DNA of 64,000 nucleotides. Source: Arachnia propionica. GTDB lineage: Bacteria; Actinomycetota; Actinomycetes; Propionibacteriales; Propionibacteriaceae. Where the stretch lies: the NCBI RefSeq assembly GCF_003859805.1, contig NZ_RQZG01000010.1, positions 1 through 64,000 of the forward strand, written 5' to 3'. The notes below the pieces were generated by a model. The model saw nothing but the letters and a program-made list of their open reading frames with translations, was not told the origin of the DNA and made no database searches. The translations under genes and the position numbers were made by a program. The first letter of the stretch is position 1, and each line of letters begins with the position of its first letter. Below, in pieces: positions 10,485 to 42,080 of this stretch.

Positions 10485-10562
10485 CGTGTCAAAACCCGGC
10501 CACCCCCACTGGTCGAGCCGGAGGGGCAAGTGTGCGGGACAACCTGAGCCAAGACCCGGCTC

Positions 10563-11462: not shown

Positions 11463-11627
11463 CCTACCCCTATGGAGGGCCGGTTGACAAGGGGGTTTGC
11501 GGGCCGTTTACACACCGGAGGGGCTTCGGGCGTGTCGTGGAGGTGCCCAGAGGGCTGAAAACGGGTGTTTGGGCTTGTCAGGTGGCATACACACCTCAGC
11601 GGGTTTTCGCTCATCCCGGGACCACCC
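11463..11627 (-). promoter_or_regulatory. CRISPR leader 2
   Basis: Near-copy of leader 1, with the same TTGTCA-18 bp-TAGGGT promoter abutting the first repeat on the minus strand and the same CCCGGGATGA distal motif. It lies upstream of cmr1 but points away from it. The 190 bp from here to cmr1 must hold the cmr operon promoter, which I could not place confidently. Confidence 0.85.
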
Positions 11628-11817
11628 TGTCCCGGGGTGTCGCACGTCCCGGCTGCCATGGTCCTCACCTCCCGTGTCATCCCGCCACAGCTGTGCCTGG
11701 ACGCGGTCCCGCTGCTCAGCTCCTGCTGTGACCTGCTCAGGATGCCATGTCCCGGGACCTCTGGGGGCCTGTCCGTCAGTGAGATGTACAGCGCGAACAG
11801 ACTCGAAAGGAGTGAAC

Positions 11818-15363: not shown

Positions 15364-15368
15364 ACACA

Positions 15369-16184: not shown

Positions 16185-16582
16185 TGATCGAGACCCTGTC
16201 CCAGCAGCGCGTCAGGCTGGCCCACGACCTGGTCAGTTCCCGTCTGGGCCGGGACGAGGCGACGGTGTACGGCCGCCTGTGCCACCGCTTCCCCATGATG
16301 GTGATGCAGGGTGGGCTGATCACCGCCACCTTGTTCATCGACAGCAAGAGCACCGGCAAGGATGCCCGCGCGAAGGCGCACCAGGCGATCCTCTCGGATC
16401 TCGCCCGGGTCCTGGGGCTGGGTGATGCTGATGTCGTCGGCACCCTGACCCGGCAGCAGGATGCCCTGACGCTCATGGCGTGGACCCACGAGGTGCTGCA
16501 CACCTGGGCGATGATGCGTCGCTTCGCGGTGTCCATCCTCAAGGTCGAATCCGGCGGTGAGGACGACGGGGAGGCCGTGTGA
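16184..16582 (+). CDS. cmr5: Type III-B small subunit Cmr5 (Cas11)
   Basis: 132 aa, all helical, the expected size for Cmr5 (LSQQRVRLAHDLVSSRLG ... GRLCHRFPMMVMQGGLITATLFI ... HEVLHTWAMMRRFAVSIL). It overlaps the cmr4 stop; AAGGAGG at 16173-16179 serves ATG 16184 (ATG 16181 is an in-frame alternative). Cmr5 forms the minor filament along target RNA. Confidence 0.9.
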   Translation: MIETLSQQRVRLAHDLVSSRLGRDEATVYGRLCHRFPMMVMQGGLITATLFIDSKSTGKDARAKAHQAILSDLARVLGLGDADVVGTLTRQQDALTLMAWTHEVLHTWAMMRRFAVSILKVESGGEDDGEAV

Positions 16583-17304
16583 TGAAGGCATCCGATGTCT
16601 CCCGGTGCCAGCACGCCGGTATCGCGCTGGCCACCGTCGATCCGCCTCCGACGGGCAAGACCTGGCTGGATCACCTCCTGCCTTTCACCACGCTGCGTTC
16701 GCCGCGTGACTACGGGGTGGCCGCTGCGCGTTGGGCCCGGCTGTCCGCCGGTCTTCCCGGGGTGGTGCAGCGGCAGGTGACCACGAGCAGTTCCTTGGCC
16801 ATCGGGACCGGGAACTTCTCCCCGGTGGAGAACGGGTTGACCCTGCACGGCACCTGGGGGGTGCCGTACCTGCCGGGGGCGGCCCTGAAGGGGCTGGCAC
16901 TGCGGGCGGCTGTCCGGTTCGGGCTGAGCGAGCTGGAGTCGGAGGTGATCTTCGGCACCACGGCTTCCCGGGGGTATGTGAACTTCGACGACGGCTGGCT
17001 GCTGCCCGACCCGGACAGGCCGCTGTTCGAGCTGGATGTGATGACCCCGCACGCGGGCGAGTACTACTCGTCGCAGGGGAAAGAAGCCCCGGATGACTCC
17101 CGGGAACCGGTTCCGATCCAGTTCCTGGTGGTCCCGAAGGACACCCGGTTCCTGGTGACGCTGGACTGCCCGGAGAGCGGGGACTGGGCCGAGGCCGCCA
17201 TGACCATCCTGGCCTTCGGCCTGCAGAAGCTCGGCCTGGGAGGGATGACCAGTTCCGGGTACGGGCGTTTCACCGTCGAACCGGTCGGGAAGGGGCAGTC
17301 GTGA
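16582..17304 (+). CDS. cmr6: Type III-B RAMP protein Cmr6
   Basis: 240 aa. Contains TSSSLAIGTGNFSPVENGLTL, then TWGVPYLPGAALKGLALRA, the Cmr6/Csm5 family signature for the complex's distal cap, and ends GLGGMTSSGYGRFTVEP, the glycine-rich loop. Starts at ATG 16582 within TGATG shared with the cmr5 stop. Confidence 0.9.
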   Translation: MKASDVSRCQHAGIALATVDPPPTGKTWLDHLLPFTTLRSPRDYGVAAARWARLSAGLPGVVQRQVTTSSSLAIGTGNFSPVENGLTLHGTWGVPYLPGAALKGLALRAAVRFGLSELESEVIFGTTASRGYVNFDDGWLLPDPDRPLFELDVMTPHAGEYYSSQGKEAPDDSREPVPIQFLVVPKDTRFLVTLDCPESGDWAEAAMTILAFGLQKLGLGGMTSSGYGRFTVEPVGKGQS

Positions 17305-19190
17305 TGATCGGTCGCAGTCTGACCCGGACCGGGAGGCGGCTCGGGCGTCACGACGGACCGGTGTTCATCTCGTACCGGCAGAGCGACGGCACCGGGATCG
17401 CGAATTTCGTGGAGACCTACCTGAGGTGTGGCGGGATCATTCCGTGGCGGGACCTCGCCGACCTCCCGGCGGGTGAGGTGGCCCGGTCCGTCCAGGAGGC
17501 GATGGAGGACGGGATCAGCGCGGGCATTCTCATCGTGACCCCCGAGCTGGGCAACAGCGCTTTCGTCCGCGACCACGAGGTGCCGATACTCCTGGAGATG
17601 CAGCGCAGCGATCCCCGTCGGTTCCGCCTCTACGTCATCAACACCATCCGTGACGCTGCGGGCGGGAAGCGATTCGACGTCGGAGCCCCTGACCGGCTCC
17701 TGAAGTTCACCGCCGAGGCCAGGACTTCCCCGCGTCGTCGACGCATCGAGAAAGGGCTGCTGACCCGGAAGCGGGCTGCGGATCATCTGCTGCAGAATGC
17801 GAAACAGTACGCCCTGCTGGAGCAGACCCGGGATGCCTCAGCCGTCTCGGAGCTTGAGAAGCTGCTGCGAGATCTGCTGCGCCACCGACTTCGCGCCCGT
17901 CGCCCGAACCTGCTGGACCGGGAGGTGAAGATCGCGGTTCAGACCCGTCCGGAACCGAGCAGTGAGGAGGCCACCCGGGGTGCTCGGCGAAGTGCTGACC
18001 TGACCATCCGGATGCGACAGGACCCCAGGACCCAGATCCCGGCGGAGCTGGACTACCGGTGTCTGCGGGAGACCTTGCCGATCCTCATCGACTCCATCCA
18101 CAACAAAGGCATCAACAAGGTGACCTTCTCGGGAGGGTGTCATCCGAGCATCGCCTGGGCGCTCGGGGCGTCGCTGCCGGATGCGCGTGGCCTGAAGGAG
18201 TTCTCCTGGCAGGACGCCTACGATCCGGAGCAGGTCTGGAGCTCGCAGTCCAACAAACCGGTGAGCTCCTCGATTCACATGAAGGTCGGCGAGGCGGAGG
18301 CTGTACCGATCAATCTGGATCGGCCCCCTTCTGCTGAGGAGCTCAAGACCCTGCTGGGGAATGCCGATCCCAGCCTGGGGATCGTGGTGCACCTGTCAAC
18401 GGGACGCCACCACACTGAGCCCGTGGCCGACCTGGCCCGGCATCTGGGCGGCGCACCGATCGTCGTCCTCGACGTGGTGGGACCTCAGGCCGCGGCGGGA
18501 CGCAACGCCTGGGTGCCACCGGAGGAGGGCGAGAAGCTGGCACGCCTGCTGGGCACCGTGCTCCGCAACCTGGCGAAGGCCGGGACGGAGCCACTGCATC
18601 TCAGCTTCTCCGGAGCAGTACCGCTGGCTGCACTGACCGCACGTCACTGCAACACCGTCGCGGTTCAGATCTACGAGTTCGCCCATCACACCGATGGCCG
18701 GCCGGACGGATACGTCCCCGTGCTCACAACGGTTTCCGGTGTCAAACATCCCGTGACGCACGTCTTCGAGCAGGGGGCGAGCGACGGCGGGATCACCCAC
18801 CTGGTCAACCTCACTCCACATGCTGTGACGCTGTACTGGGAGGACGAGCCCATCCATGTCTGGGAGAGGCCCGGGGAGAACACGCCCTGGGTTCGGCAGG
18901 GGGAGAGTCGTGTCCCGTCGGCTCCGCTGCAGGTCGAGGGGGTCGAGGTGCCGCACACCCACGTCATCCCCGGCTCTCTCACGGGGTTGCCCACGGCCGA
19001 GGAAGGGACGGGATTCATCGTCTCCCGGATCAGTGCGGCCGCTGCGCGTCGCGGTGATTTCTTCTTCCCCGACGGGGAGGTCCGTGATGGACGCAACGTG
19101 GTGGTGGGATGTCGAGGGTTGGGCAGCTTTCCCGCCCATTCGGACGAGGTGCGGCCCTACCTCCAGTGGCTGCCGGATCGTGAGGGGTGA
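17304..19190 (+). CDS. TIR-SAVED effector with an extra C-terminal domain
   Basis: 628 aa from ATG 17304, which shares TGATG with the cmr6 stop. Residues about 18-110 are a TIR domain: PVFISYRQSD, WRDLADLPAG, SAGILIVTPELGNS and a conserved Glu near 92 (RDHEVP) in the NADase catalytic position. About 115-230 is a helical linker. About 235-480 is a SAVED domain (VTFSGGCHPSIAWALG; IVVHLSTGRHH; LHLSFSGAVPLAAL), which binds cyclic oligonucleotides. About 495-628 is an added module with VNLTPHAVTLYW, EGTGFIVSRISAAAA and VVVGCRGLG, similar to a small stand-alone protein family common in phages and actinomycetes. TIR-SAVED proteins form filaments on ligand binding and destroy NAD+. Being inside the cmr operon, the ligand should come from Cas10. 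Confidence 0.85.
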   Translation: MIGRSLTRTGRRLGRHDGPVFISYRQSDGTGIANFVETYLRCGGIIPWRDLADLPAGEVARSVQEAMEDGISAGILIVTPELGNSAFVRDHEVPILLEMQRSDPRRFRLYVINTIRDAAGGKRFDVGAPDRLLKFTAEARTSPRRRRIEKGLLTRKRAADHLLQNAKQYALLEQTRDASAVSELEKLLRDLLRHRLRARRPNLLDREVKIAVQTRPEPSSEEATRGARRSADLTIRMRQDPRTQIPAELDYRCLRETLPILIDSIHNKGINKVTFSGGCHPSIAWALGASLPDARGLKEFSWQDAYDPEQVWSSQSNKPVSSSIHMKVGEAEAVPINLDRPPSAEELKTLLGNADPSLGIVVHLSTGRHHTEPVADLARHLGGAPIVVLDVVGPQAAAGRNAWVPPEEGEKLARLLGTVLRNLAKAGTEPLHLSFSGAVPLAALTARHCNTVAVQIYEFAHHTDGRPDGYVPVLTTVSGVKHPVTHVFEQGASDGGITHLVNLTPHAVTLYWEDEPIHVWERPGENTPWVRQGESRVPSAPLQVEGVEVPHTHVIPGSLTGLPTAEEGTGFIVSRISAAAARRGDFFFPDGEVRDGRNVVVGCRGLGSFPAHSDEVRPYLQWLPDREG

Positions 19191-20077
19191 TGATGGGCAT
19201 CTCACTCATCCACGCCGGGGGCGGGCTTCCTCCTGCCCCGGTCCGGCTGCTCCCGAATCGCACCTCATCCACACCGTCGAGACGCACTGCCCTGCCGAGG
19301 GGTCAGGTACGGCGGTGGCAGGTGACGCTGAAAGCGGTGCCGGATCAGAGGTGGTCCTTGAGTCCTGTCCCGGCAGGGATCCATTCCCTGATCTCCTCGT
19401 GGCTGCACAGCAGTGTCCTCGACCCGGCGGGGGAGGCCCATCACGGTCCTCACACCTATGCGGCCCGTTGGCGGCGGTGCTCCCCTGACACCGTGACCAT
19501 CACGCTGCACCTGTTCCGGGATGAGCTGTCGGCTGTTCTGGTCAGACGCTTGTTCCTCGGGCGTGCAGAGCGGTTGGGGCAGGTCGCCCTGCTGGTGACA
19601 GCTGTCGAGGAGCTCGGTGCCACGGCGTTGACCTCGTTGTCAGGCGTGCCGGGCACACGGTGGCTGCTCCGGTTCCCCAGCGGGGTGACGTTCAAACGTG
19701 GTGACGTGTTCATGCCGTGGCCCTCCCCTGAGGCGGTGCTGGGCAGCATTCGCCGTCGTCTGGTCGAGACGTGGGGGTGGGAGCCGGAGGCTGCTGTCAT
19801 GCGGGAGGCCGTTCGGGCCGTCGCCCCGATCCGGACCGAGCTGACCACCCGTCGGTGGCGGGAGGGTCGCGGTGGCCGGGGGCGTGATGTCTCCTTGGCT
19901 GTGGGAGAGCTCGAGTGGGTCGCCAGTGGGGATGAGGAGATCCGGGCCATCGTCGATCTGCTGCTCCGGGCGGGTGAGCTCACAGGAGTCGGGGCCAGGA
20001 CCACGTGGGGAGCAGGAGCCCTGGAGGTGACCCGTCCCTCTTCTGCAACCCGATTGCAGAAGGTGGTCCCGGGATGA
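19190..20077 (+). CDS. cas6: CRISPR pre-crRNA endoribonuclease Cas6
   Basis: About 295 aa; ATG 19190 or 19193 (TGATG overlap with the effector stop). Two RAMP-type halves; the C-terminal glycine-rich loop GVGARTTWGAGALEV and the preceding LLLRAGELTGVG helix are typical of Cas6. It processes repeats to leave an 8-nt AUUGAAAC handle on crRNAs. Last gene of the operon; its stop codon lies inside the conserved segment of leader 3, and its final codons contain a perfect 8-bp stem (20041-20061). Confidence 0.88.
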   Translation: MMGISLIHAGGGLPPAPVRLLPNRTSSTPSRRTALPRGQVRRWQVTLKAVPDQRWSLSPVPAGIHSLISSWLHSSVLDPAGEAHHGPHTYAARWRRCSPDTVTITLHLFRDELSAVLVRRLFLGRAERLGQVALLVTAVEELGATALTSLSGVPGTRWLLRFPSGVTFKRGDVFMPWPSPEAVLGSIRRRLVETWGWEPEAAVMREAVRAVAPIRTELTTRRWREGRGGRGRDVSLAVGELEWVASGDEEIRAIVDLLLRAGELTGVGARTTWGAGALEVTRPSSATRLQKVVPG

Positions 20078-20224
20078 CCGAAAACTGGCTGAGGTGTGTA
20101 TGCCACCTGACAAGCCCAAACACCCGTTTTTGGCCCTCTGGGGGCCTCCGCGACACGCCCGAGACAGCCCTGGTGTGCAAACGGTCCGCAAACCCCCTTG
20201 TCAACCTACCCTCCGGCGGGGTAG
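20062..20224 (+). promoter_or_regulatory. CRISPR leader 3
   Basis: Same block as leaders 1 and 2 in the opposite orientation: starts GGTGGTCCCGGGATGA and ends with TTGTCA, 18 bp, TAGGTC directly against the first repeat. The start of the block encodes the last residues and stop of cas6, so operon end and leader are fused. Confidence 0.85.
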
Positions 20225-21046
20225 GTCTGAGACACCCGCGAGAACCAAAGCGGATTGAAACCCCGCACCACATGCAGTGATACTCTTCCCCGGCGTCTGA
20301 GACACCCGCGAGAACCAAAGCGGATTGAAACGTCAGTCGGACTCAATCACCCGGAAAGTTCCGGTCTGAGACACCCGCGAGAACCAAAGCGGATTGAAAC
20401 GAACGGCCACAAGAGGGCGGTCCTTGCCTTCTCTAGTCTGAGACACCCGCGAGAACCAAAGCGGATTGAAACTGGCCATCACTATGATGGCCCAAGTAAA
20501 CGCTGCCGGTCTGAGACACCCGCGAGAACCAAAGCGGATTGAAACATGTAGCCCACACTAATGAAATTCTCAAGCATCTTGCGCCCGGTCTGAGACACCC
20601 GCGAGAACCAAAGCGGATTGAAACCGTCTGACACGGAAAGGGTGACTGTTGGTTCGCGTCTGAGACACCCGCGAGAACCAAAGCGGATTGAAACCCTCGT
20701 GACACCAGAAGGCGATCGCGTGTTGCAGGTCGTCTGAGACACCCGCGAGAACCAAAGCGGATTGAAACATCTGCTTCGTCGTCGACCGGTCGATGTTCAG
20801 GTCTGAGACACCCGCGAGAACCAAAGCGGATTGAAACGCCCTGCTCATCCCGCACCATCGAGATGGGGAAGTCTGAGACACCCGCGAGAACCAAAGCGGA
20901 TTGAAACTCGCGGGTCCAGTACATGCCCTTCCCATCCAGTCTGAGACACCCGCGAGAACCAAAGCGGATTGAAACGTTGCGTCGATACCGGGAGTGTCGA
21001 GCGAGTGACGAGCTGAGACACCCGCGATCCTTCAACCCCGCTGGTC
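20225..21046 (+). CRISPR. CRISPR array 3 (11 intact repeats plus one degenerate)
   Basis: Intact repeats start at 20225, 20295, 20364, 20436, 20509, 20588, 20658, 20732, 20801, 20871 and 20939. On the + strand they begin GTCTGAGACACC and end GGATTGAAAC; all carry the T variant (AACCAAAGCGG). A degenerate repeat lies at about 21011-21046. Spacers are 31-42 bp. Transcribed rightwards from leader 3, towards RT-cas1. Confidence 0.97.
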
Positions 21047-21201
21047 GAGCCATGAAGCAGAGCGAGCGCGTCGAGGCCTCAGTGCCGTGTGCTGGGGCTC
21101 ATCGCCGGGGTCTCGAACCGGACTGCTCACTGAGGCTCGCGGTCGGGCTCGACCAGCCGAGGAACGAGAACACCACCATTCGTACCGTCGAGGAGGACAT
21201 G

Positions 21202-23094
21202 ATGAGCACTGAAGCTCTTCACCGCTCCGAACCACCGACCTGTCTGCAACGTGCCGCACTGGCTCGGGCGTGGGAGCGAGTGCTGAGGAAGGACGCACAG
21301 GACGGGGACCTGAGCACCGGTGTGGAACGCTTCGCCGAGGATGCCGAGGCACATCTCGCCGCGTTGGCGGATGAGCTGGCGGACGGGACCTACCGACCCC
21401 GGACCCTGTCCAGGGCGGTGATCCCGAAGAAGGGTGGGCAGCGTTTCCTGGACATCCCGCCGGTCAGGGACCGGATCGTGGAGCGCGCCATCCACGAGCA
21501 CCTCACCCCCCGGCTCGACCCGCTGTTCGGCTGCAGTGCCTACGGGTACCGCCCTGGGCTCGGGGTCGCAGACGCCGTCGCCGAGGTGGTGCGGCTCCGC
21601 GAGGAGGGCTGCACCCACGTGCTGCGCACCGATGTCCGGGACTGTTTCCCGTCGCTGCCGGTGCATCTCATCCGCCGTCAGCTGGAGGCCCTCATCGACG
21701 ACCCGACCATCCGCCACCTGGTGGGGTTGCTGCTGGAACGCACCACCCGGCTGCCCGGTGGCCGGGTGGTGGCCTTCCCCGGTCTGCCGCAGGGCGCGGC
21801 CCTGTCACCGATGCTGGCCAATCTCGCCCTCATCCCGCTGGATGAGGCGCTCATGGATGCCGGTTTCCCTGTCATCCGCTATGCCGACGACCTCGTCGTC
21901 GGGCTTGAGGATCCCGGCGACGGCGCCGAGGCATTGCGGGTCGCCACAACTGTGCTGAGAGGAATCAACATGGAACTGGGTGCTGAGAAGACTGGAATCA
22001 CGAGTTTCGAGGACGGGTTCGCCTTCCTGGGTGAGGAGTTCGGGCCACGCTACCCACCGTCGACGGGCGAGGCGCGCATTCAGGAACCTGACAAGAAGGT
22101 GCTGTACGTGGCGCGTCAGGGAAGCCGCATCCAGGTGTCGAAGGGCCGCCTGGAGGTGGTGCTGAATGATCGTGAACTGCTGTCAGCGCCGGTGAGTGAC
22201 ATCTCCCGGATCGTCTGTTTCGGCTCCGTCGGGATCTCGGCCTGGGCACGCAGCTGGGCGTTGCGCAACAACGTGGACATCCTGCTGGCCTCGCGACGGG
22301 GAAGCTACATGGGGGCCATCGTGAATGATTCGTGGCCCGCCCGCCGGAGTCGGCTCCTGGCGCAGCTGTCCATCGACGGCACGCAACGGGAGGTGGAGAT
22401 TGCGCGTGAGATCGTCGCCGCGAAACTGCGCCACCAGGTGACGTTGCTCAGGAAGTTCTCCAAACGGACCGAGGCGGAGCGGACCGCTGAGGTCACCAGG
22501 CACATCCAGGCCCTGGCCAGGATGATCCCGGATGCGAACACCCGCGACGAGTTGATGGGTCTGGAGGGGGCGGCTGCGAAGGCCTACTGGCCGCGCTTCG
22601 GGGCCCTCGCCCCACCGGAGGTGAGCTTTGTGGAGCGTTCCCGCCAGCCGCCGCGGGATGTGACGAATGCGGCCCTGTCGTTCCTGTACACACTGCTGCT
22701 GGGTGAGGCGGTGACGGCGATCCGGGCGACGGGGCTGGACCCGGACATCGGGGTGCTGCACGCCGATCACGACACCCGCCCCAGCCTGGCCCTGGACCTG
22801 ATGGAGGAGTTCCGGCCCCTGGTGGTGGATCACGTGGTGCTGACCGCGGCACGTCGCGGCACCCTCACCGCTGCCCATGGCCGGGAGATCGAGGGCAAGG
22901 GCGGGGTGTACCTGACGGCGGCAGGACGTGAGGCGATGATCGCGGCCTTCGAGCAACGGATGCTGACCCATGTCGCCGGGGCTCTCGACGACATGCGTGC
23001 GACCCGTCGTCATCACCTGTACCGGCAGGCCCAGCGCTTGCGTGCGGCCATCATGGATCCGACACAGAGATGGACGGGGCTGGCATGGCGGTGA
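21202..23094 (+). CDS. cas1: Reverse transcriptase-Cas1 fusion
   Basis: 630 aa; AGGAGG at 21191 serves ATG 21202 (ATG 21199 also possible). Residues about 15-290 are a group II intron-type RT: AVIPKKGGQRFLDIPPVRDRIV, YGYRPG, VLRTDVRDCFPSLP, GLPQGAALSPMLANL and the active-site YADD at 227-230. The Cas1 integrase follows from about 300, with GLEGAAAKAYW (Glu455), GVLHADHDTRPSL (His520) and DLMEEFRP (Glu535 or Glu536) as metal ligands. No N-terminal Cas6 part is present. RT-Cas1 proteins acquire spacers from RNA via reverse transcription and are typical of type III loci. Overlaps cas2 by 10 bp. Confidence 0.95.
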   Translation: MSTEALHRSEPPTCLQRAALARAWERVLRKDAQDGDLSTGVERFAEDAEAHLAALADELADGTYRPRTLSRAVIPKKGGQRFLDIPPVRDRIVERAIHEHLTPRLDPLFGCSAYGYRPGLGVADAVAEVVRLREEGCTHVLRTDVRDCFPSLPVHLIRRQLEALIDDPTIRHLVGLLLERTTRLPGGRVVAFPGLPQGAALSPMLANLALIPLDEALMDAGFPVIRYADDLVVGLEDPGDGAEALRVATTVLRGINMELGAEKTGITSFEDGFAFLGEEFGPRYPPSTGEARIQEPDKKVLYVARQGSRIQVSKGRLEVVLNDRELLSAPVSDISRIVCFGSVGISAWARSWALRNNVDILLASRRGSYMGAIVNDSWPARRSRLLAQLSIDGTQREVEIAREIVAAKLRHQVTLLRKFSKRTEAERTAEVTRHIQALARMIPDANTRDELMGLEGAAAKAYWPRFGALAPPEVSFVERSRQPPRDVTNAALSFLYTLLLGEAVTAIRATGLDPDIGVLHADHDTRPSLALDLMEEFRPLVVDHVVLTAARRGTLTAAHGREIEGKGGVYLTAAGREAMIAAFEQRMLTHVAGALDDMRATRRHHLYRQAQRLRAAIMDPTQRWTGLAWR

Positions 23095-23369
23095 CCCATC
23101 TGGCTGCCTACGACGTGACGGAGGATCAACGTCGGGCCCAACTGGCGGCCCTCCTCCAAGCCTTCGGCGACCGCATCCAGTACTCGGTGTTCCTGCTCAA
23201 CACCACCCCGGAGGAGTTGGAGCACATCAAGACCAGGGCAGCGGAGATCATCGACGAGGACACCGATTCACTGTGGATCATCCGCCAGTGCGCGGGATGT
23301 TGGAACGATGTCTCCTGCATCGGTCAGGCAGCACCGCCCGCCCGGGTCCTCCACTACGCGGTGCTGTGA
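23085..23369 (+). CDS. cas2: Cas2
   Basis: 94 aa, normal size. Starts MAVTHLAAYDVTEDQRR, where the Asp of YDV is the conserved family residue; ferredoxin-like pattern with YSVFLLNTTPEELEHIK. Forms the adaptation complex with RT-Cas1, whose stop it overlaps. Confidence 0.93.
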   Translation: MAVTHLAAYDVTEDQRRAQLAALLQAFGDRIQYSVFLLNTTPEELEHIKTRAAEIIDEDTDSLWIIRQCAGCWNDVSCIGQAAPPARVLHYAVL

Positions 23370-23397
23370 GGCCAGTTCTTGTGGCTCCCCCAGAACA

Positions 23398-23455
23398 GGG
23401 TGCTCCCGGGATGACCGAAAACCCGCTGCGGAGTGTATGCCGTCTGGCAATCTGA
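23398..23455 (+). repeat. Relic of the CRISPR leader downstream of cas2
   Basis: TGCTCCCGGGATGACCGAAAAC followed by a GTGTATGCC..CTG.CAA pattern matches the first about 55 bp of leaders 1-3 and then diverges. No repeat follows. It looks like the remains of a fourth leader, or a conserved insertion boundary. Confidence 0.7.
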
Positions 23456-24144: not shown

Positions 24145-24372
24145 TCACCACCTTGCAGGACGGATCGTCCCCGCCGGCATGGTGGACTGAGCTGCAACTT
24201 GACGGCAGACCTGCCCCCTCATCCCGCTGCAAACGTGCGGAGCGTTGCTCCTGAGAGCGCTTTCCGAAAGAACGCTCCGCACGTTTGCAGCGATCCGACG
24301 TCCGGTCTCGTCATGCCGCACAGCTGGTTCAGACACCGAGCAGGGACGGGTATCCAAGTCCTGGTCAGACAT
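24145..24372 (-). CDS. Small ORF with a strong ribosome-binding site (75 aa)
   Basis: AAGGAGGTG five bases before ATG 24372 is one of the best SD sequences in the window. The peptide starts MSDQDLDTRPCSVSEPAVRHDE. From about residue 30 it reads through the palindromic element at 24225-24292, so its C-terminal half is probably not original. Divergent from the first micro-ORF unit. No family recognised; expression is plausible, function unknown. Confidence 0.4.
   Translation of the reverse strand: MSDQDLDTRPCSVSEPAVRHDETGRRIAANVRSVLSESALRSNAPHVCSGMRGQVCRQVAAQSTMPAGTIRPARW
24225..24292. repeat. Palindromic repeat element, copy 1 (22-bp arms)
   Basis: Left arm 24225-24246 (CGCTGCAAACGTGCGGAGCG...) and right arm 24271-24292 are perfect reverse complements separated by 24 bp. 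A second copy with nearly the same arms lies at 58383-58456. Confidence 0.9.
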
Positions 24373-24589
24373 CGTCACCTCCTTGTCGTCGTATTCACCC
24401 CAGGTCTGCTGGCCAGCCGAGGACGACCGTGTCCAGGAGCCAGTCCACGCCAGCCCCAGGCACAGTGAGTGATCAGGCCCCTGAGGCCTCCCTTCCCCTC
24501 GGCCCAACCCGGCCAGCGGACAATGCCCTGATCCGGATGCGTAGGTCAAGCGAGCGGATTGCTCACCGAACCTACGAAAGGAGCACACC

Positions 24590-24607
24590 ATGTGGATCGT
24601 CTGGTGA
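24590..24607 (+). CDS. Micro-ORF A, five codons: MWIVW
   Basis: ATG TGG ATC GTC TGG TGA, preceded by GAAAGGAG at 7-nt spacing. The first of three near-identical units. About 45 nt upstream lies GATGCGTAGGTCA, shared with unit C and containing a possible -10 TAGGTC. A 15-bp hairpin follows 29 nt after the stop. In units A and C the stop sits inside CTGGTGACCAG, a near-palindrome. Could be a translated micro-peptide, a stalling minigene or the start site of a small regulatory RNA. Confidence 0.5.
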   Translation: MWIVW

Positions 24608-24636
24608 CCAGCATGAAGTGAATCGACGGCGACAGG

Positions 24637-24670
24637 CATGGGGTCGGTACCACAGGGTACCGACCCCATG
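24637..24670 (+). terminator. Hairpin of micro-ORF unit A
   Basis: Perfect 15-bp stem (CATGGGGTCGGTACC / 24656-24670) with loop ACAG. No U-tract follows, so it may be an RNA structural element rather than a simple terminator. Confidence 0.6.
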
Positions 24671-24772
24671 ACCCCGTCCCCAGGCCCTGCTTCAGAGTGG
24701 TCCGCAGCGGCCTGCGCATCTGCCGGATTGGCATCATCGACAACACCACTGGACCCGACGAAGGAGCTCATC

Positions 24773-24790
24773 ATGTGGCTCTTCTGGTGA
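24773..24790 (+). CDS. Micro-ORF B, five codons: MWLFW
   Basis: ATG TGG CTC TTC TGG TGA with GAAGGAG at suitable spacing. Same length and Trp positions as A and C, but Ile-Val is replaced by Leu-Phe, which argues that the peptide pattern MW-two hydrophobics-W is conserved rather than the DNA alone. Confidence 0.5.
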   Translation: MWLFW

Positions 24791-24816
24791 GACGAACCGT
24801 GGCCATCCCTGTCTGC

Positions 24817-24858
24817 ACAACCGGGGCCAGTCCTCCACCAGGACCTGGCCCCGGTTGT
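24817..24858 (+). terminator. Hairpin of micro-ORF unit B
   Basis: About 18-bp stem (ACAACCGGGGCCA ... TGGCCCCGGTTGT, then TCCT/AGGA) with one bulge and loop CCACC. Confidence 0.6.
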
Positions 24859-24882
24859 CGGTGGATTCCAGATGCGTAGGTC
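24855..24882 (+). promoter_or_regulatory. Candidate promoter of micro-ORF unit C
   Basis: TTGTCG (24855-24860), 16-bp spacer, TAGGTC (24877-24882). The TAGGTC box is inside GATGCGTAGGTCA, which is repeated upstream of unit A (24536-24548), and equals the -10 of CRISPR leader 3. Confidence 0.35.
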
Positions 24883-24920
24883 AGGGCAGAAGATGTCCCG
24901 CCACGCGAAAGGAATCCGAC

Positions 24921-24938
24921 ATGTGGATCGTCTGGTGA
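24921..24938 (+). CDS. Micro-ORF C, five codons: MWIVW
   Basis: Same 18 bases as unit A including the stop and the following CCAGCA, with GAAAGGA upstream. Lies 70 bp before the 3' end of the convergent gene at 25008-26351. Confidence 0.5.
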   Translation: MWIVW

Positions 24939-24966
24939 CCAGCACATGACCTTGGTTGATGAATGC

Positions 24967-25000
24967 TCAGGGGTCGGCACCGCAGGGTGCCGACCCCTGA
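24967..25000 (+). terminator. Hairpin of micro-ORF unit C
   Basis: Perfect 15-bp stem (TCAGGGGTCGGCACC / 24986-25000), loop GCAG, close in sequence to hairpin A. Being symmetric, it may also terminate the minus-strand operon ending at 25008. Confidence 0.65.
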
Positions 25001-25007
25001 TGCCGTC

Positions 25008-26351
25008 TCAGGCCTGTTCCGCGACGAGGATGGTCTCGGCGACGGTGAGGGTCTCGGTCCACTCCCCGGCATCGGCCAGGGCGAGTTCCAGCAGCTCCCG
25101 GGTGGCGTCGTGTTCCGCCGGGCGCTCAGCCAGTGCCCACAGACCCATCGCCTGCTCCAGAGCGGCCTCCGCACTGCCCAGCAGATCGAGGTCGGCCACG
25201 ACGTTGCGCAGACGCAGGGCGCACACCGCACGGGCACACCACCGCTCGGCCTCCGCCACCAACGGATTCCGCTGCGGCGACGGACCGGCTCCGCGCACCC
25301 GAACGTCCAGCCGGGCACCGTCACCCACCAGCCGGTTCGCCAGGGCGACCTGCTCACCGGACAGCTCCGCCACCCCACTCCACGGCCCGCCGTCGTCGGA
25401 GCGGGTGAGCCCCCCGGTCGCGATCGGCATCGGCCATCCGGGAGCCAGCACGTCGAAGAGCATCCCCCCCGGCGGGTTCGGGGCCGCACCGAGCAGCCGG
25501 AACACCTCCCCGGTCCCCTCCACGGTGACCGTGACCCGCCCCGAGCCGTCACCCTGCTCGACCTGCCAGCTGACATTGCCCTCACGCCGCGAGACCAGCC
25601 CCAGCGGGATGTCCTGCCAGTCCACCGTCGAGGTCCCCACCACGGTCGCCCCGCCCGCTGCCAGCGCCAATTCGGGCCGCAACTGCCCTGCCCAGTCGAC
25701 GACACCCGTCGAGCGGGGTGTGGAGGCCTCCGACTCGATGCCGTGTGCCCACGTGACGGCGGTGGCATGGGCGTCGCTGAGCGGGCTGGTCTCGGCGATG
25801 AGGAGGTCGAGGGCCCTGGTGAGCAGGGCACGGACCGCTGGCTGGGCCATGGCCGCGCCCACGGCCACGGGACGAGACATCAGGGCCCCCAGCAGCTGCT
25901 GGAGATCGGACAGCCAGTCGTCGTCGGTCTCGACGATGCCCCTGAGCTCGGCCAGCAGGGTCATCTCCTCCAACAGCAGCAACGCCGGGTCGAGGGGCAG
26001 GGCCGCGTTGCGCTGACACCAGCGGTTCTCGGCCAGGCGGATGAGCAGCGCCAACGACGGCTGGGCGACGACCGGGCAGGTCACATGTGTGTCGTCGCGG
26101 TGCAGGGCACGCTCCAACACCTCATCGGCGACGGCGTTGCCGTACAGCTGTTCCAGCACGGGCACGGCCAGGCCGGGGTCGGCCACCAGGCAGGACGGCA
26201 ACCGGTCCGGGCGCGACGGATCGAGTTCGAGGGTTGCGCCGAAGATGTCCAAGGTCACCGCCCCGGCCGGTGCCACCGGTTCCTCACCAATCATGACGGC
26301 ACCGAATCCGACGTGACGGATCACCACCTCTCGGGGCTGGTCGAACGTCAT
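25008..26351 (-). CDS. Uncharacterised protein, second gene of a minus-strand pair
   Basis: 447 aa. ATG 26351 overlaps the stop of the upstream gene by 4 bp. The N-terminus is strand-rich (VVIRHVGFGAVMIGEEPVAP), the centre helical (LLLLEEMTLLAELRGI) and the middle again strand-rich with paired Trp and Gly (VSWQVEQGDGSGRVTVTVEG); the C-terminus has helical pairs like a short TPR tail. No membrane segment or catalytic motif. Function unknown. The neighbours suggest a regulatory or effector partner of the sigma-like genes. Confidence 0.75.
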   Translation of the reverse strand: MTFDQPREVVIRHVGFGAVMIGEEPVAPAGAVTLDIFGATLELDPSRPDRLPSCLVADPGLAVPVLEQLYGNAVADEVLERALHRDDTHVTCPVVAQPSLALLIRLAENRWCQRNAALPLDPALLLLEEMTLLAELRGIVETDDDWLSDLQQLLGALMSRPVAVGAAMAQPAVRALLTRALDLLIAETSPLSDAHATAVTWAHGIESEASTPRSTGVVDWAGQLRPELALAAGGATVVGTSTVDWQDIPLGLVSRREGNVSWQVEQGDGSGRVTVTVEGTGEVFRLLGAAPNPPGGMLFDVLAPGWPMPIATGGLTRSDDGGPWSGVAELSGEQVALANRLVGDGARLDVRVRGAGPSPQRNPLVAEAERWCARAVCALRLRNVVADLDLLGSAEAALEQAMGLWALAERPAEHDATRELLELALADAGEWTETLTVAETILVAEQA

Positions 26352-27706
26352 GGATTTTCCTTTTCAACAAGATTCATCATGTAGTCGAGGTCAGGAAGGA
26401 GGAATTCTTCGGCTGCACGACGATACTCCTCCATCCGTTCCGGGTCGTGTTCGCGGAGCCCTTCAGCCACCTCTGGGTTTTTCACGAACCAGGCATAGGC
26501 ACGATTGAGGGCATCCGGATCAGGTGACGAGAAGAGCACCTCGGCGGCTGGATCGGCCTCAGGGCAGGTGAGGTCCGCAACACTCAGGGTGAGTGCACGC
26601 CGTCGGTGTTCCTCCCCCGAGGGAATCCCCTTGAACACGGCCCGGGTGACGATCCTCCGCGCCTCGGTGGCCTCGATGGGACGGCGACGACGATCCTGCA
26701 TGAGGCAGTCCATCCAGGCACGTCGCATCGCGTGCTGGTGGGCGCGTTCCATCTGCTCGTTCCGCAGCAGGTAGCGGCCCTGCTCCTGCCTGGCGCAGAA
26801 GGTGCGGATCATGGCCTCCGCCAGCGCCGTGAGCTCGTCGTTGACCGGGAGATCACTCGTCCCGGTGGCGGTGACCGGGCCAGGGGTCCGTTCCCAGGAG
26901 CGGTCCTCGTCAGGGTCCTGGCAGGGCTGGTCGGCCACGGAGGCACGCCCCATCAGCAGCCCCTTCAGCAGGCTGTAGAGCACCACCAGGGCTGATTCCT
27001 GGTGGAGCCCCAGCCGTCCGCAGGCCCGGGCCACCTCGGCACGGGCGAGCTCCTCACCGTCCCCGGGCACGACGGTGTCCTTGACCGCCAGGCGGAACCG
27101 GGAGTGGACGGAGCGGGCCAGGCCGTCCCAGGTGTTCTCCCGCCCGGAGCGGGTCAGTGGCGGACGTTCGTCGTCGCCCAGCATGACCCGGCTGTGGGGA
27201 TGGGCCAACAGGTGTGCTTCACCCTCGGCCAGCCAGAGCTGGTCGTAGAGCTCCTGGAACCGGCCGAACTCCTCCCGCTCAAGCATCCGTCCCAGTGACG
27301 GTGCATTGGCCAGGTGGGTGCTGACCACGGCCTCGAGCTCCATCTCCCCCAACGGCTCGTCCCTGAGCCATCCCTTCGCGACGGCCCGCACCAGGCACTC
27401 GGCGGCCGTCCCGGCCGTGACGTCCAGTCCCCGTCGCCTCACCTCGTCCATGGCATGGTCCACGACACGGCGCACCAGCCTCAGGTCGACCAGGATCTGC
27501 GGCTCGTGCTCGGCCAGCCACGATCCCAGGCGTCGGTCCTCGTCCTCCTTGACCAGAGAGTCGGGGAAGTTCTTCCGGTACACGCGCAACAGCCAGTGCC
27601 TCGTCGCCAACGGGGCGCTCAACCCTCCACCCCGGGGGGCGAGGACACGCCAGTCCTGCAACTGCTCCAGCCACTGGGCGCACAGCCGGGAGAGTCTCTC
27701 GGTCAT
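26348..27706 (-). CDS. Uncharacterised helical protein, first gene of the minus-strand pair
   Basis: 452 aa from ATG 27706 with SD GAGGAGGTG. All-helical, charged, with LSRLCAQWLEQLQDWR at the start and a helical core AMRRAWMDCLMQDRRRRPIEATEARRIV that loosely resembles sigma-factor-like proteins; I would not call it a sigma factor on this alone. The 148-bp gap to the divergent gene at 27854 probably carries promoters for both. Confidence 0.7.
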   Translation of the reverse strand: MTERLSRLCAQWLEQLQDWRVLAPRGGGLSAPLATRHWLLRVYRKNFPDSLVKEDEDRRLGSWLAEHEPQILVDLRLVRRVVDHAMDEVRRRGLDVTAGTAAECLVRAVAKGWLRDEPLGEMELEAVVSTHLANAPSLGRMLEREEFGRFQELYDQLWLAEGEAHLLAHPHSRVMLGDDERPPLTRSGRENTWDGLARSVHSRFRLAVKDTVVPGDGEELARAEVARACGRLGLHQESALVVLYSLLKGLLMGRASVADQPCQDPDEDRSWERTPGPVTATGTSDLPVNDELTALAEAMIRTFCARQEQGRYLLRNEQMERAHQHAMRRAWMDCLMQDRRRRPIEATEARRIVTRAVFKGIPSGEEHRRRALTLSVADLTCPEADPAAEVLFSSPDPDALNRAYAWFVKNPEVAEGLREHDPERMEEYRRAAEEFLLPDLDYMMNLVEKENP

Positions 27707-27853
27707 GGGTCTCACCTCCTCAGGTCGCATGTCTACACACGCATCTGACGGACAGCCTGCCCGCTCACTTCCTCCGCCACGGCCACCTCGCCCACGCGAC
27801 AGGGGTTGCCGAGAGTTAAGATCCAAAAGGATGACCGAGGGGGAGGAATCTCA

Positions 27854-28789
27854 GTGGCGGGACGCGCAACAGAAGTGGACGTGAAGGCCTTGGAGCAGGA
27901 GGTCCTGGCGCTGTGTCGCCATGGCCTGCGGAACAGTGATCCGCCCGCCACTCCTGGGCTTCGTGACGTGTTGAGGATTCCGGGCGACCTCTCCGATGCA
28001 CAGGCCCTGCCCCAGCTCCGGAAGGGCATCATGAACGCCATCAGCGGGCTCCCGGTGGAGATCCGCGACGCCTTCCTCGTGGCCTCCGGGGCTCGCCCCG
28101 GCTCATCGACCCGCAGGAACGTCCGCCTCCAGGAAGCCGCCAGTTTGGAGAAGGTCTCGGAGCGGACCATCCGCCGGAACGAGATCGAGGCGGTTCCCCT
28201 GCTCGTCGCTCGTCTGCTCGAGGGCGAGGAGCACGCGGTCGAGGCCTCCCGGTTCACCGTGACACACCTCCACCTCTGGCTGGACCTGAGTCTGCCCCGT
28301 CCGGTCCTCTCCCAGCAACGCACCATCAAGGTCCTGGCTCCTCACATGGAGGGGTTCTACGAAGAGTTCACCATCCCGGACCTCAGCGAGGGTGCTCCCG
28401 TGTGGCGGGATCTGGGTGGCTGCTCCGTGGACCATGTCGCCACCCTGGGAGGTGGGATGTGGGGTGTCAGCCACAGCTTCCCGCACCCGCTGTGGCAGGG
28501 TGACACCCACACCTTCTCCACGGCCATGCGTCTGCCGGACCACACCTCGCTCCGGCCCGAGATCAGGTTCCGTCCCTCCAACACCACCCTCGACACCGTC
28601 GTGGACATCCGTTTCGGCGACCACCTGCCCTCCCGGATCGAGTGCTTCGAGACGACAGCCGTCCTGGAGAACGTGCCTGACAAGGACATCACCCACCGGA
28701 TCGTCCCTGACGCAAGTGACCAGCGCATCGAGTTCAAGGAAATCCGGTTGGGATGCACGGCCGGTGTCCGCTGGTTCATGGATGACTGA
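27854..28789 (+). CDS. HTH-containing protein with beta-rich C-terminus
   Basis: 311 aa from GTG 27854 (SD GGGAGG), preferred to an upstream TTG in the same frame. Residues about 75-125 (NVRLQEAASLEKVSERTIRRNE) look like a helix-turn-helix of sigma region 4 or LuxR type. From about 140 on the protein is beta-rich (EFTIPDLSEGAPVWRDLGG ... DIRFGDHLPSRIECF), suggesting a sensor or interaction domain. Divergent from the minus-strand pair and 115 bp upstream of the next gene. Probable regulator; family not identified. Confidence 0.65.
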   Translation: MAGRATEVDVKALEQEVLALCRHGLRNSDPPATPGLRDVLRIPGDLSDAQALPQLRKGIMNAISGLPVEIRDAFLVASGARPGSSTRRNVRLQEAASLEKVSERTIRRNEIEAVPLLVARLLEGEEHAVEASRFTVTHLHLWLDLSLPRPVLSQQRTIKVLAPHMEGFYEEFTIPDLSEGAPVWRDLGGCSVDHVATLGGGMWGVSHSFPHPLWQGDTHTFSTAMRLPDHTSLRPEIRFRPSNTTLDTVVDIRFGDHLPSRIECFETTAVLENVPDKDITHRIVPDASDQRIEFKEIRLGCTAGVRWFMDD

Positions 28790-28904: not shown

Positions 28905-29822
28905 ATGACGACGATCAGCCTCCCCGAGTTCGCGGAGATCACGTGGCAGGCCACGGCTGCGTGGCGCGTCACCACCTGCCACGACGGCGGACGCTGCCCC
29001 ACCACCCGGGTCCCTTACGGCCACGAGGATCCCCGCGCGGAGCTGATGGCCGCGGAGTGCATCCAGGCCGGTTGCCTGGATCTGATCCACGAGCTGTGGC
29101 GTCATGTCACGGAGACCTTGGACAGGAGGTCCGCGAAGGGTGGGCTGCCCCGGGTCGACAACCTCGGCGGCTACATCCGGCAGATGGTGACCCGCAGGCT
29201 GGCCGACATCAGACGCCAGGAGCGGGTGAGGCGCGGGTTTCCCGCCAAGACCCATCGTGACGACGGCGCTCCCGGCCGGGTGAATGCGGCGCTGCTGGCG
29301 GGTGGGGATCGTCGCGGGCCGTGGCTGGTGCAGCTCTTCCGGATCCTGCGCTCCTACCCCTTCGGGGCGAACCACGTGCCGGGGCACTGGCCGGTCAGCG
29401 GACTGATGACGGAGCACCGGAAGACCTACGGGGAACCCCTCGACGAGGCGCAGGTGCTGGCCGACATCAAGACGGTGCTGCGGGTGGCCCGGGCGACCCT
29501 GGGGGATGTCTGGGTCCACGACCACCTGACCCTGCCGATATACAGCAGTGGTCACTGCGAGGCCCTGTCGGACACCAGTGCCCTGGCCGAGCCACCCACC
29601 ATCGACCACGTCGGGTTGAGCATGGTGCTGTCCCGCTACGCCCGGCTCCGACGAACGGGGCGTTGCGAGGAGGACGCCCTGCAGGAGGCCGTCCGGGAGA
29701 TCTTCGGTATCGAGGTCGTCGTGGGCCGGGAGCTCCGTGAGGCCCTGGCGGAGTTCCGGCAGGCCGAGTGGGACACGACCATCGAGGGACCGGGTGTGAG
29801 GTCACATCGACCCCACCCCTGA
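28905..29822 (+). CDS. Sigma-factor-like protein
   Basis: 305 aa; AGAAGGGA before ATG 28905. Residues about 45-115 (GCLDLIHELWRHVTETLD ... NLGGYIRQMVTRRLADIRRQ) match the sigma-70 region 2 pattern of a core-binding helix followed by an YIRQMVTRRLADIRR DNA-contact helix. Region 4 is not obvious. It follows the HTH gene and may form a regulatory pair with it. Confidence 0.55.
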   Translation: MTTISLPEFAEITWQATAAWRVTTCHDGGRCPTTRVPYGHEDPRAELMAAECIQAGCLDLIHELWRHVTETLDRRSAKGGLPRVDNLGGYIRQMVTRRLADIRRQERVRRGFPAKTHRDDGAPGRVNAALLAGGDRRGPWLVQLFRILRSYPFGANHVPGHWPVSGLMTEHRKTYGEPLDEAQVLADIKTVLRVARATLGDVWVHDHLTLPIYSSGHCEALSDTSALAEPPTIDHVGLSMVLSRYARLRRTGRCEEDALQEAVREIFGIEVVVGRELREALAEFRQAEWDTTIEGPGVRSHRPHP

Positions 29823-30302: not shown

Positions 30303-33083
30303 ATGGACGAGCTGGTGACCCTGGCCACCGAGGCCCCGTCGAGTGCTTCGCTGGCGCGTTGGTTGCAGGGGCTCAGCCGTGCCGAGCGGACCACCCACCA
30401 GGCGACGTGGCTCGCCCACCAGCGCGACATCCGGACCCAGCTGATCGAGGCCGGGGCCCAGGCGCGCCACATGATGCTCGCCGCCAGCTTCGGCACCCGA
30501 CCCGAGCCGCTGCTCTCCGAGCTCGGCGGCAAGGGGCTGCGCTCCCTGGTCCGCGACGACGCCGCCCTCGACCACATCGCCGCCGCCAGCGCCGCCCAGG
30601 GCCGCGCCTGGTGCGAGGCCCTGATCCGGCTGGCCACCCACGACGAGGACACCGCCCGGCAGGCCTGGCCACTGACCAGCCGCGTCGCCACCGCAGCCCG
30701 CCTCCCACTGCCCACCGACCGGGGCTCCTGGCTCGGCAGGCTCCGCCCACCCCGCGCCGGACAGGACCGCAGGCTCTTCGACCACATCGTCGCCGAACTG
30801 GCCACCCTCACCCCCGCCGAGCACCGTTCCGCCGTCGCTGCTCTGAAGAAGGCCCTCACCAGCCGCACCCACGAGACCTGGCGGGAGCCCCTGCACGGCT
30901 GGACCGCCCCGCTGATGCTGGAGATCGGTGGCACCCCCGGCCAGGTGGCCCGCACCTCCGTCGGTCTGGCCTGGAGCGGCACCGCCGCCCGCGACCACCT
31001 GGTCCGGGCCCTGCTCACCCGCGACGACACCTACATCCGCGCCTTCATCGACGCCATGCTGCAGGCCCAGCTCTCCACCCTGCCCGTCCCTCTCCTCGAC
31101 CCCCTCATCGACGCCCTGGACCTGCCCATCCCCAATCATCCGCACTACCTGGAGGACTGGGTGCAGGACCACTCCCGGCCCCGCCCCGGCACCCGCTGGG
31201 TGGAGCGTTTCGTCGCGGCCTGCCAGGTCCCCAACCTGCTGGTCCGGCTGCCCGAGTTCCAGCACTCCATGCAGGCCGACGTCGCGCGGATGCGTTCCCA
31301 GGAGGTCGTGGACGACGACGCCCTGGTGATCGCGTTGCTGTCGGTGCTGGAACGCGGCGACCGGCGCGGCCCGCAACGCCAGGCCTGGCAGTGGCTCACC
31401 GGGCTGGGCCTCACGGGCACCCTCATCGCGCACCGGGACCGTGCCATCGACGCCGCCCGCCACACCGACTCCTCCGTGCTGCGCAGCGTCGCCGAGGTGC
31501 TGCTGGCCAGCGGCGCCCTCGACCAGGAGCAGCTCACCCGGTTGTCCCTGACCTTCCTGCCCCGCAAGGAACGTGAGGCCAAACGCAGGATGCTGCGCGC
31601 CCTCAGCCACGTCGGGTCCCCCTCACCGGAGCTGATCGACGCCGTCCGGGCCGTGGCCTCCGACGCCGACCCCCGCACCGCGGTGATCGCCGCCGATCTG
31701 CTGTCCCGGTGGTTCGGTGAGGAACCTGCCCCGGAGCCCCCCGCCTCTCCCCGTGGTCTGTGGCGGGACCCGGTGGGGAGACCACCGCGGCCACTGCCCG
31801 AGTTCGACACCGACGCCCTTGTCGTCGATGCCGACCGCTGGTCGACGATCCTCGCCACCGCCCAGGTCTGGCCGCAGCCCGTCGTCGCGCAGGAGCGGGC
31901 CCTGGCCGCACTCGTCGCGACGGCCCACGCCCGGGGGGTCGAGGCGTTGCTGGAGTTCACCCCGGATCACGAGACCCCGGACGAGGCCCACGCGGCCCTG
32001 CTGGGGCAGCTCGGCTGGGAGGTCGGGCTCCAGGATCGTGCGGACCTGCTCGCGGGGCTGCTGCACCGTCGCACCGCCGAGCTGGGGGCCCGCCTCGGTC
32101 GGGTCCCGTGCATGCTCTCCGCGCCGTCGCACACCCGGCTACGGTTGTCGTGGGAGATGCTCGCGCAGCGTGTCGCGCAGTACCGCGAAGCCGGCCGGGC
32201 AGCGCTGCCCGCGGATGTCGCCGTCGCGCTGGGACGTCTCGATCGGGCCACCGTCCCCGACGACCTCTCCGGGTACCGGCTGCCCATCGACGGCTGCGGC
32301 CATGGTCTCGACGAGGTGCTGACCGCCTGGCGGGACACCCCGGTGACCCCCGCTGCCCTGACGCTGCTGCCACCGCCGGAGCAGCCGCTGCACGGCTCCG
32401 TGTCGTCGATCCGTTCGGTCCCGGAGGTGACGGGCGACGAGCCGGGTGGTCTCGACCTGCTCGGGATCACCTCGCCGTGGAACTCCACCTTCCGCCCCGG
32501 TCGTGACGAGGGCCCGTGGGAGCATGCGCTGCTGCCGAATCATCCGTCGCGGGGGGCGGCGGTGCAGCTGCGGGCCCTCGAGGGCACCCACACCCCGCAG
32601 CTGTTGAGTTTCCTCGCCCTCGCGGAGGTGGCGGGATCGTTCGGGCCGGTGATGGGTCTCGCGACGGTGGTGGCCGCCGCCGATGCGACCTCCCCGGACC
32701 GCGAGGCCCTGGCCGCCACCCTCATCGACGCCTGGGACGAGGGTCGTCTCCACCCCGATGACCTCGCCGCCGCCTGGGCATCCCCGGAGCGGGAGGGCTG
32801 GCCGTTCTCCGTCCCGAAGTTCGCGATGCTGCTGCGGCTCATCGCCGACAACGGTGGGCTGGCGCTGGCGTGGCCGAGCCTGGCGGCCCTGGTCGAGGAC
32901 ATGGCTGGCCAACCCAAGGTCCCGAGCATCATGGCCAGCACCCTGGAGGCCCTGCTGGGCTACCTGCCCGAGGTGCCCGGCCCCGTCGCCCTCCCCAACG
33001 TCGCGGCGCTGGCGGAGCGGGGCGGCAAGGCCAAGGCCCCCCAGATGGCGCGCAGGGTGGTGGCGGAGCTGCACCGCAGGTGA
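30303..33083 (+). CDS. Large helical-repeat protein, DUF6493-like, copy 1
   Basis: 926 aa; GGAGGTG before ATG 30303. Helical throughout, with HEAT/ARM-like pairs (LLSVLERGDRRGPQRQAWQWL; LRALSHVGSPSPELIDAV). Shared landmarks with the next gene are PLTSRVATAA, FDHIVAELATLTPAE, RVPCMLSAPSHTRLRLSW, VTGDEPGGLDLLGITSPW and LLPNHPSRGAAVQL. Proteins of this size and pattern in actinomycetes are annotated DUF6493 and have no known activity. No signal peptide. The domain name is from memory. Confidence 0.65.
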   Translation: MDELVTLATEAPSSASLARWLQGLSRAERTTHQATWLAHQRDIRTQLIEAGAQARHMMLAASFGTRPEPLLSELGGKGLRSLVRDDAALDHIAAASAAQGRAWCEALIRLATHDEDTARQAWPLTSRVATAARLPLPTDRGSWLGRLRPPRAGQDRRLFDHIVAELATLTPAEHRSAVAALKKALTSRTHETWREPLHGWTAPLMLEIGGTPGQVARTSVGLAWSGTAARDHLVRALLTRDDTYIRAFIDAMLQAQLSTLPVPLLDPLIDALDLPIPNHPHYLEDWVQDHSRPRPGTRWVERFVAACQVPNLLVRLPEFQHSMQADVARMRSQEVVDDDALVIALLSVLERGDRRGPQRQAWQWLTGLGLTGTLIAHRDRAIDAARHTDSSVLRSVAEVLLASGALDQEQLTRLSLTFLPRKEREAKRRMLRALSHVGSPSPELIDAVRAVASDADPRTAVIAADLLSRWFGEEPAPEPPASPRGLWRDPVGRPPRPLPEFDTDALVVDADRWSTILATAQVWPQPVVAQERALAALVATAHARGVEALLEFTPDHETPDEAHAALLGQLGWEVGLQDRADLLAGLLHRRTAELGARLGRVPCMLSAPSHTRLRLSWEMLAQRVAQYREAGRAALPADVAVALGRLDRATVPDDLSGYRLPIDGCGHGLDEVLTAWRDTPVTPAALTLLPPPEQPLHGSVSSIRSVPEVTGDEPGGLDLLGITSPWNSTFRPGRDEGPWEHALLPNHPSRGAAVQLRALEGTHTPQLLSFLALAEVAGSFGPVMGLATVVAAADATSPDREALAATLIDAWDEGRLHPDDLAAAWASPEREGWPFSVPKFAMLLRLIADNGGLALAWPSLAALVEDMAGQPKVPSIMASTLEALLGYLPEVPGPVALPNVAALAERGGKAKAPQMARRVVAELHRR

Positions 33084-42067: not shown

Positions 42068-42080
42068 ACTCCTGCCCCAC

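Follow-up and report, generated by a model that had tools for sequence, protein, structure and literature searches.

A tandem array of five-codon minigenes

The window, the whole 64-kb stretch of Arachnia propionica DNA analyzed here, carries on its forward strand three copies of the arrangement SD-ATGTGG-NTCNTC-TGGTGA, with starts at 24590, 24773 and 24921. Minigene A (24590..24607) and minigene C (24921..24938) share the sequence ATGTGGATCGTCTGGTGA and encode MWIVW, and minigene B, between them (24773..24790, ATGTGGCTCTTCTGGTGA), encodes MWLFW; the original prediction had placed three ATG TGG..TGG TGA units at these positions. It had also credited each with a good SD, which holds for A (AAAGGAG) and B (GAAGGAG), the SD of C (AAAGGAA) being weaker. 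Each ORF is followed on the same strand by a terminator-like hairpin: 24637..24670 in unit A (15 bp, 29 nt after the stop), 24817..24858 in unit B (14 bp, 26 nt after) and 24967..25000 in unit C (15 bp, 28 nt after), those of A and C showing covariation. The spacing of 26-29 nt was as announced; the stems measure 14-15 bp, against a claimed 14-18 bp. The hairpin of unit C also sits just beyond the stop of a convergent gene, gene A.

Upstream of minigenes A and C lies a conserved element, GATGCGTA (24536..24543 and 24871..24878, forward strand), accompanied in each case by a hairpin in the 5' UTR. That of A (24540..24576, forward strand) abuts the SD and has a z of -3.57, none of 200 shuffles being as stable; that of C (24874..24907, forward strand, ends approximate) has a z of -2.78, with 4 of 200 shuffles as stable. 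Unit B has neither the element nor the 5' hairpin. The upstream sequence said to be common to units A and C was recovered as GATGCGTAGGTCA (family D2). The genome to which the window belongs has five copies of the pattern ATGTGG(6N)TGGTGA, three of them inside 350 bp here and two elsewhere. Rfam, at gathering scores, gave no match at the minigene locus.

Four genes follow, with starts taken from a crude gene caller: gene A (25008..26351, reverse strand, 447 aa), convergent with the minigenes; gene B (26348..27706, reverse strand, 452 aa), their most constant 3' neighbour; gene C (27854..28789, forward strand, about 311 aa); and gene D (28905..29822, forward strand, about 305 aa). Genes A, B and D match no known family, no match to a curated family being convincing, and gene C has a helix-turn-helix signal below cut-off. 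These neighbours had been described as sigma- and HTH-like. Searches with A, B and D returned no sigma family, and gene D was rejected as a sigma factor after hhalign against one ECF-like protein, a weak test, gave a probability of 0.2%. Trp codons with a terminator-like hairpin behind them could reflect a trp-type attenuator, or ORFs that happen to cluster beside terminators, but the first gene downstream on the same strand is gene C, with its start called at 27854, and the arrangement recurs in 12 genomes at one kind of site (see below). We hold both possibilities to be very improbable. The locus had already been judged different from an ordinary trp leader, and rightly so: no same-strand biosynthetic gene lies directly downstream in the window.

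On the other side of the minigenes, the predicted CRISPR locus is real. It is of type III-B (8532-23400) and comprises Cmr3, Cmr4, a Cas6-like gene, an RT-Cas1 fusion and three CRISPR arrays, together with a TIR-SAVED gene (17304..19190, forward strand) located about 5 kb from the minigene array (G000), whose C-terminal part matches PADLOC Unk_01. A long inverted repeat, CGCTGCAAACGTGCGGAGCG..., occupies 24225-24292, and similar sequence is found near 58.4 kb (from about 58385); the pair is perhaps a small mobile element. Elsewhere in the window, two adjacent genes of about 926 aa (30303-33083 and 33163-35940) both match one gene lying beside D in G010, the first with a DUF7824 match below cut-off, and positions 42080-42152 give an Rfam tRNA match of 44.2 bits with no ARAGORN call.

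A minigene family across the genus Arachnia

Across the genus, the family counts at least 22 units (a lower bound, because some weak matches lay outside the loci inspected), encoding 14 distinct peptides in 12 of 39 genomes. Its least biased support is a short-ORF scan, which looked for an SD and 1-11 codons after the start within 1.5 kb 3' of gene A at 14 loci (about 0.3 kb only in L033). Apart from three ORFs within coding sequence, it returned 16 minigenes: MWIVW (twice), MWLFW, MWFFW, MWFVW, MWIAW, MWLMF (four times), MLWRW (twice), MLWSW (twice), MLCRW and MVWGW, an alternative start two codons earlier being possible for one MLWSW unit. A scan of 15 stretches with no demand for Trp gave 20 ORFs, 6 of them minigenes and 14 devoid of Trp.

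A sequence-only model built from 13 units, R1, was then searched on the 39 genomes of the genus. It added MWFYW (twice in G024, once in G026), MWFYWWR (G011) and MWWYW (G016), and reading of the sequence revealed MFWKL in G018. Three weak matches above E 0.01, in G016 (0.0109) and G006 (0.0207 and 0.157), were kept because each combined an SD with a Trp-containing ORF of five codons and a hairpin; the other weak matches inspected, at 18 loci (L065-L082), had no SD with a short ORF nearby. MWxxW, proposed as the conserved pattern, does not stand as a rule, since MWLMF, MLWRW, MLWSW, MLCRW, MVWGW, MFWKL and MWFYWWR also occur.

No minigene was found outside the genus in the sampled genomes of the family, order and class. 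On 198 genomes of the family, at E ≤ 0.01, R1 matched 11, all within the genus, and on 394 genomes of the class, at E ≤ 0.001, it matched the window's own genome only, both searches having stricter filters that lose weak matches. A pattern combining an SD and NTN middle codons (GGA, 4-10 nt, then ATGTGGNTNNTNTGGTGA) was searched in 391 genomes of the order and found at 5 sites in 3 genomes, all of them Arachnia and all beside gene A homologues; read backward as a control, it had none. On viral contigs, ATGTGGNTCNNCTGGTGA gave 43 matches, with an SD in one and a strong hairpin in none. Both R1 and the sequence patterns favour peptides resembling those known beforehand.

Anatomy of the units and constraint on the peptide

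The ORF has exactly five codons in 21 of the 22 units. All 22 contain Trp and end with UGA, the latter only a modest excess given that UGA also ends 141 of the 178 called genes that have a stop. Trp immediately precedes the UGA in 16 units, six units carry a single Trp, and adjacent Trp codons are limited to two (MWWYW and MWFYWWR).

The segment 3' of the ORF folds more stably than its dinucleotide-shuffled versions (Stouffer z -18.2 over the 22 units), and a strong hairpin (z ≤ -2.2) is present in 19 of them, the exceptions being G024c, G006c and G018. Most stems begin 26-40 nt past the stop. Many have GGGG/CCCC at the base, and none is trailed by a long stretch of T. In G006, four mini-ORFs seem to be arranged two ahead of each strong hairpin. 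In an alignment of four 3' hairpins, few and related sequences, two-sided changes affect 6 of the 15 pairs and 96.7% of cells are paired. RNAalifold predicted no pairs on a 13-unit alignment, probably because stems misalign, and hairpins were for this reason judged unit by unit. Upstream of the SD, folding is less pronounced (Stouffer z -8.2 overall, z ≤ -2 in 9 of 22 units), the 5' hairpin being slight or absent in window unit B, G024c, G006a-d, G005b, G002a, G002b, G018 and G016. Most units have a GATSCGTA-like element upstream, also written GATSCGTANGT. All these fold statistics, like the residue statistics below, ignore the kinship of the genomes.

Such features could belong to small structured RNAs acting by base-pairing or protein binding, with translation of the mini-ORF only stabilizing or timing the RNA. 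The strong 3' hairpins, the 5' hairpins with z ≤ -2 in 9 of 22 units and the upstream element fit this idea, which we consider unlikely: beyond the element, SD and ORF the units align poorly with one another, and constraint on the encoded residues is not needed.

Such constraint is what the peptides suggest. Beyond their initial Met, the 14 distinct peptides comprise 58 residues, 27 of them Trp, against a background of 2.0%. Of the 18 residues that fill positions 3 and 4 of the nine distinct MW-type peptides, 17 belong to the set V, I, L, M, F, W and Y, which has a background of 30%; this test treats the 14 peptides as independent, and its classes were set after the peptides were known. Because the variable codons mostly encode bulky hydrophobics, the peptide itself seems to be under selection. 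A hydrophobic middle would be superfluous for a pure tRNA-sequestering element, which again points to the peptide. The family-wide pattern supports the original suggestion of selection on either the peptide or Trp decoding.

Pentapeptide minigenes that counter macrolides act on the ribosome by being translated, and they too are five-codon ORFs coding for hydrophobic residues. To our knowledge they have no defence context, and the Arachnia minigenes, which resemble them in having a five-codon hydrophobic ORF, differ in that no drug link is apparent here.

A second pentapeptide system is that of the biarylitides, whose 18-bp precursor gene bytA evades automatic detection; as described in PMC13417212, the pentapeptide starts with Met, contains aromatic residues, occurs in several copies in some strains and is paired with a P450, with Tyr (rarely Trp) at position 3 and an aromatic residue or His at position 5. 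Since 21 of the 22 minigenes are also 18-bp pentapeptide genes, with aromatic residues and multiple copies, and since Trp variants of bytA exist (PMC13417212), they might be precursors of a tiny modified peptide of this kind. No P450 is found near them: at E 0.001 there is none in G000, G006, G009 and G018, and in the other 8 of the 12 genomes the matches are separated from the minigenes by more than 150 kb or found on a different contig. Moreover, Tyr is at position 3 in none of the 14 peptides, and Trp occupies both positions 3 and 5 in four of them (MLWRW, MLWSW, MVWGW and MWWYW) but not in the 10 others. The minigenes also differ in the hairpin following each unit and in their immune gene context, and we regard a bytA-like role as quite improbable.

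Linkage to genes A-D and to TIR-type genes

Recurrence of the units beside homologues of the 25008-29822 genes had been named in advance as the thing to look for, and it was found: in 11 of the 12 minigene genomes they lie near, 3' of and convergent to, a B-A pair or a B remnant. We searched 24 stretches with profiles of the four genes. Among those from the genus, 13 contain B or a B-like piece (the window, L011, L032-L038, L040, L042, L083 and L085), of which 11 bear minigenes in this 3', convergent position; the two others are L035, with a full B, and L040, with a B/A hybrid. In G018 the minigene is 3' of B, with gene A apart, and G026 and G016 retain no more than B remnants (E 2e-16 and 6e-5, respectively), with minigenes kept. 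The exception is G011, where the minigene is on contig C148 and a weak A-like gene (E 2e-5) lies 2.7 kb off. Two of the three G024 units are on contig C140, the end of which overlaps the start of C69, where the third unit and gene A are located. No minigene was found in the stretches having A and D without B (L039, L041 and L043). Among 393 other genomes of the class, distant homologues of D were seen in 5 and of B in 1, and the six stretches around them contained no Trp minigene. Gene B gave no tblastn match on plasmids and phages. We consider the family, its anatomy and its positional linkage well supported at the level of sequence comparison.

TIR-type genes were detected on the examined stretch of 9 of the 12 minigene genomes. 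Besides G000, TIR-SAVED homologues lie directly opposite the minigene array in G002, G004 and G005. In G009 and G024, TIR with an AAA/NB-ARC-like ATPase (the ATPase above the Pfam cut-off in G024 only) is located about 0.9 kb and 9 kb from the arrays, respectively. A short TIR ORF is found in G010, a TIR in G011, and TIR matches below the Pfam cut-off in G016; none was seen among the scanned genes of G006 (a 7.5-kb contig), G018 and G026. The window's Cas6, TIR-SAVED and RT-Cas1 had no match in the stretches of G006, G009, G010, G018 and G024:C69. Also near minigenes are a Tubulin-like (Tubulin_2) gene in G024 (L086:3435-6866) and a MATCAP-type peptidase gene in G011 (L084:3228-4325).

An element, GTCCGTCA, lies upstream of gene B (27746..27753, reverse strand) and is followed by GATGCGTGTGTA; in three cases (the window, G009 and G024) the sequence after the B copy is GATGCGTRTGTA, similar to the GATSCGTANGT element of the minigenes. 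The word GTCCGTCA, picked after it had been noticed in these loci, occurs 48 times in 277 kb (18 stretches), and a called start lies 8-110 nt downstream of 25 copies, the distance being 32-52 nt for 22 of these; for seven scrambled words, the figure was 1 of 96. Of the 25 start-proximal copies, 10 precede B or its remnants and 6 precede TIR-type genes, 16 in all. The window, L011, L032-L036, L038-L042 and L083-L086 carry the element at 32-52 nt from B genes and several TIR-type genes, which may perhaps form one regulon.

The main rival of the interpretation we propose below is that a released pentapeptide (formyl-MWxxW and kin) could be a signal or ligand, with A, B, C or the TIR effectors as its sensors, and would set the threshold of the immune module. 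The constraint at the peptide level, the five residues kept in 21 of 22 units and the nearby TIR genes with an ATPase in G009 and G024, at about 0.9 kb and 9 kb, are in its favour. So is the precedent of actinobacterial TIR-AP-ATPase conflict systems carrying short processed peptides: in PMC7159879, FxSxx-COOH and related modules couple a short peptide gene to an effector of this type, a metallopeptidase cleaves the small protein, and the FxSxx type adds a radical SAM enzyme. No radical SAM gene, exporter or peptide-modifying enzyme was recognized among the minigene neighbours scanned, the MATCAP-type peptidase of G011 being the one peptidase. The peptides also vary inside the arrays of G000, G002, G004, G005 and G024. 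We regard a sensed ligand as rather doubtful.

Proposed role in defence

The nearest working analogue is CreT, although we do not class the minigenes as CreT. In PMC8501985, CreT has a mini-ORF of a few codons that is efficiently initiated, ends in UGA and precedes a stem-loop; it acts by tRNA sequestration through adjacent rare codons, its peptide is irrelevant, and it is paired with a CRISPR-like antitoxin. Judged from their letters only, the minigenes share the initiation signal, the few-codon ORF, the UGA and the downstream stem-loop, and in the window a CRISPR locus is nearby. They differ in being tandem, with a conserved peptide chemistry, and in having adjacent Trp codons in only 2 of 22 units, as opposed to the two adjacent rare codons of CreT; furthermore, the window CRISPR locus is of type III-B, not type I. 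No creA-like antitoxin was detected at 24301-25010, where the best match to the CRISPR repeat scores 18, a value reached by 194 of 300 shuffles. The scarcity of adjacent Trp codons, the six units with a single Trp and the bulky hydrophobic middles, which point to the peptide, argue against a CreT-like action.

As judged across the genus, the unit is a compact, conserved and often tandem cassette, tied in position to the A-B-C-D module, and this module occurs with TIR-type immune genes. We tentatively propose that the minigenes serve a defence module linked to TIR, as RNAs that cause arrest when translated, in the manner of CreT. The cassettes would be transcribed and translated as small RNAs, held low in healthy cells by the A-D module and released upon infection. 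Heavy initiation on the five-codon ORF would then draw Trp from a seemingly single tRNA-Trp gene (one was found in G000 with a degenerate pattern), and UGA termination combined with this Trp demand would tie up tRNA-Trp and ribosomes, leading to growth arrest. The tie-up might proceed by peptidyl-tRNA drop-off, of the early-elongation kind treated in PMC10192219, or by slow termination aided by the bulky hydrophobic nascent chain. Minigenes kept beside B remnants in G016 and G026 are odd for a toxin restrained by B, and L035 and L040, with a B or B-like gene and no minigenes, also count against the arrest RNA proposal.

In the same tentative spirit, the arrest or alarm signal of the TIR/SAVED/ATPase-linked A-D module may consist of unprocessed five-residue Trp-rich peptides, or of the act of translating them, operating with neither a CRISPR-guide antitoxin nor a modifying enzyme. 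Among the titles listed in our literature search, in which subscription papers and preprints were little represented, none dealt with Trp pentapeptide minigenes in defence loci, and genes of 18 bp are easily overlooked by annotation. A conserved, peptide-constrained family tied to immune-type genes would suggest that translated minigenes take part in defence beyond CreT. If our proposal is true, tandem, hairpin-terminated minigenes would provide a new class of immune output.
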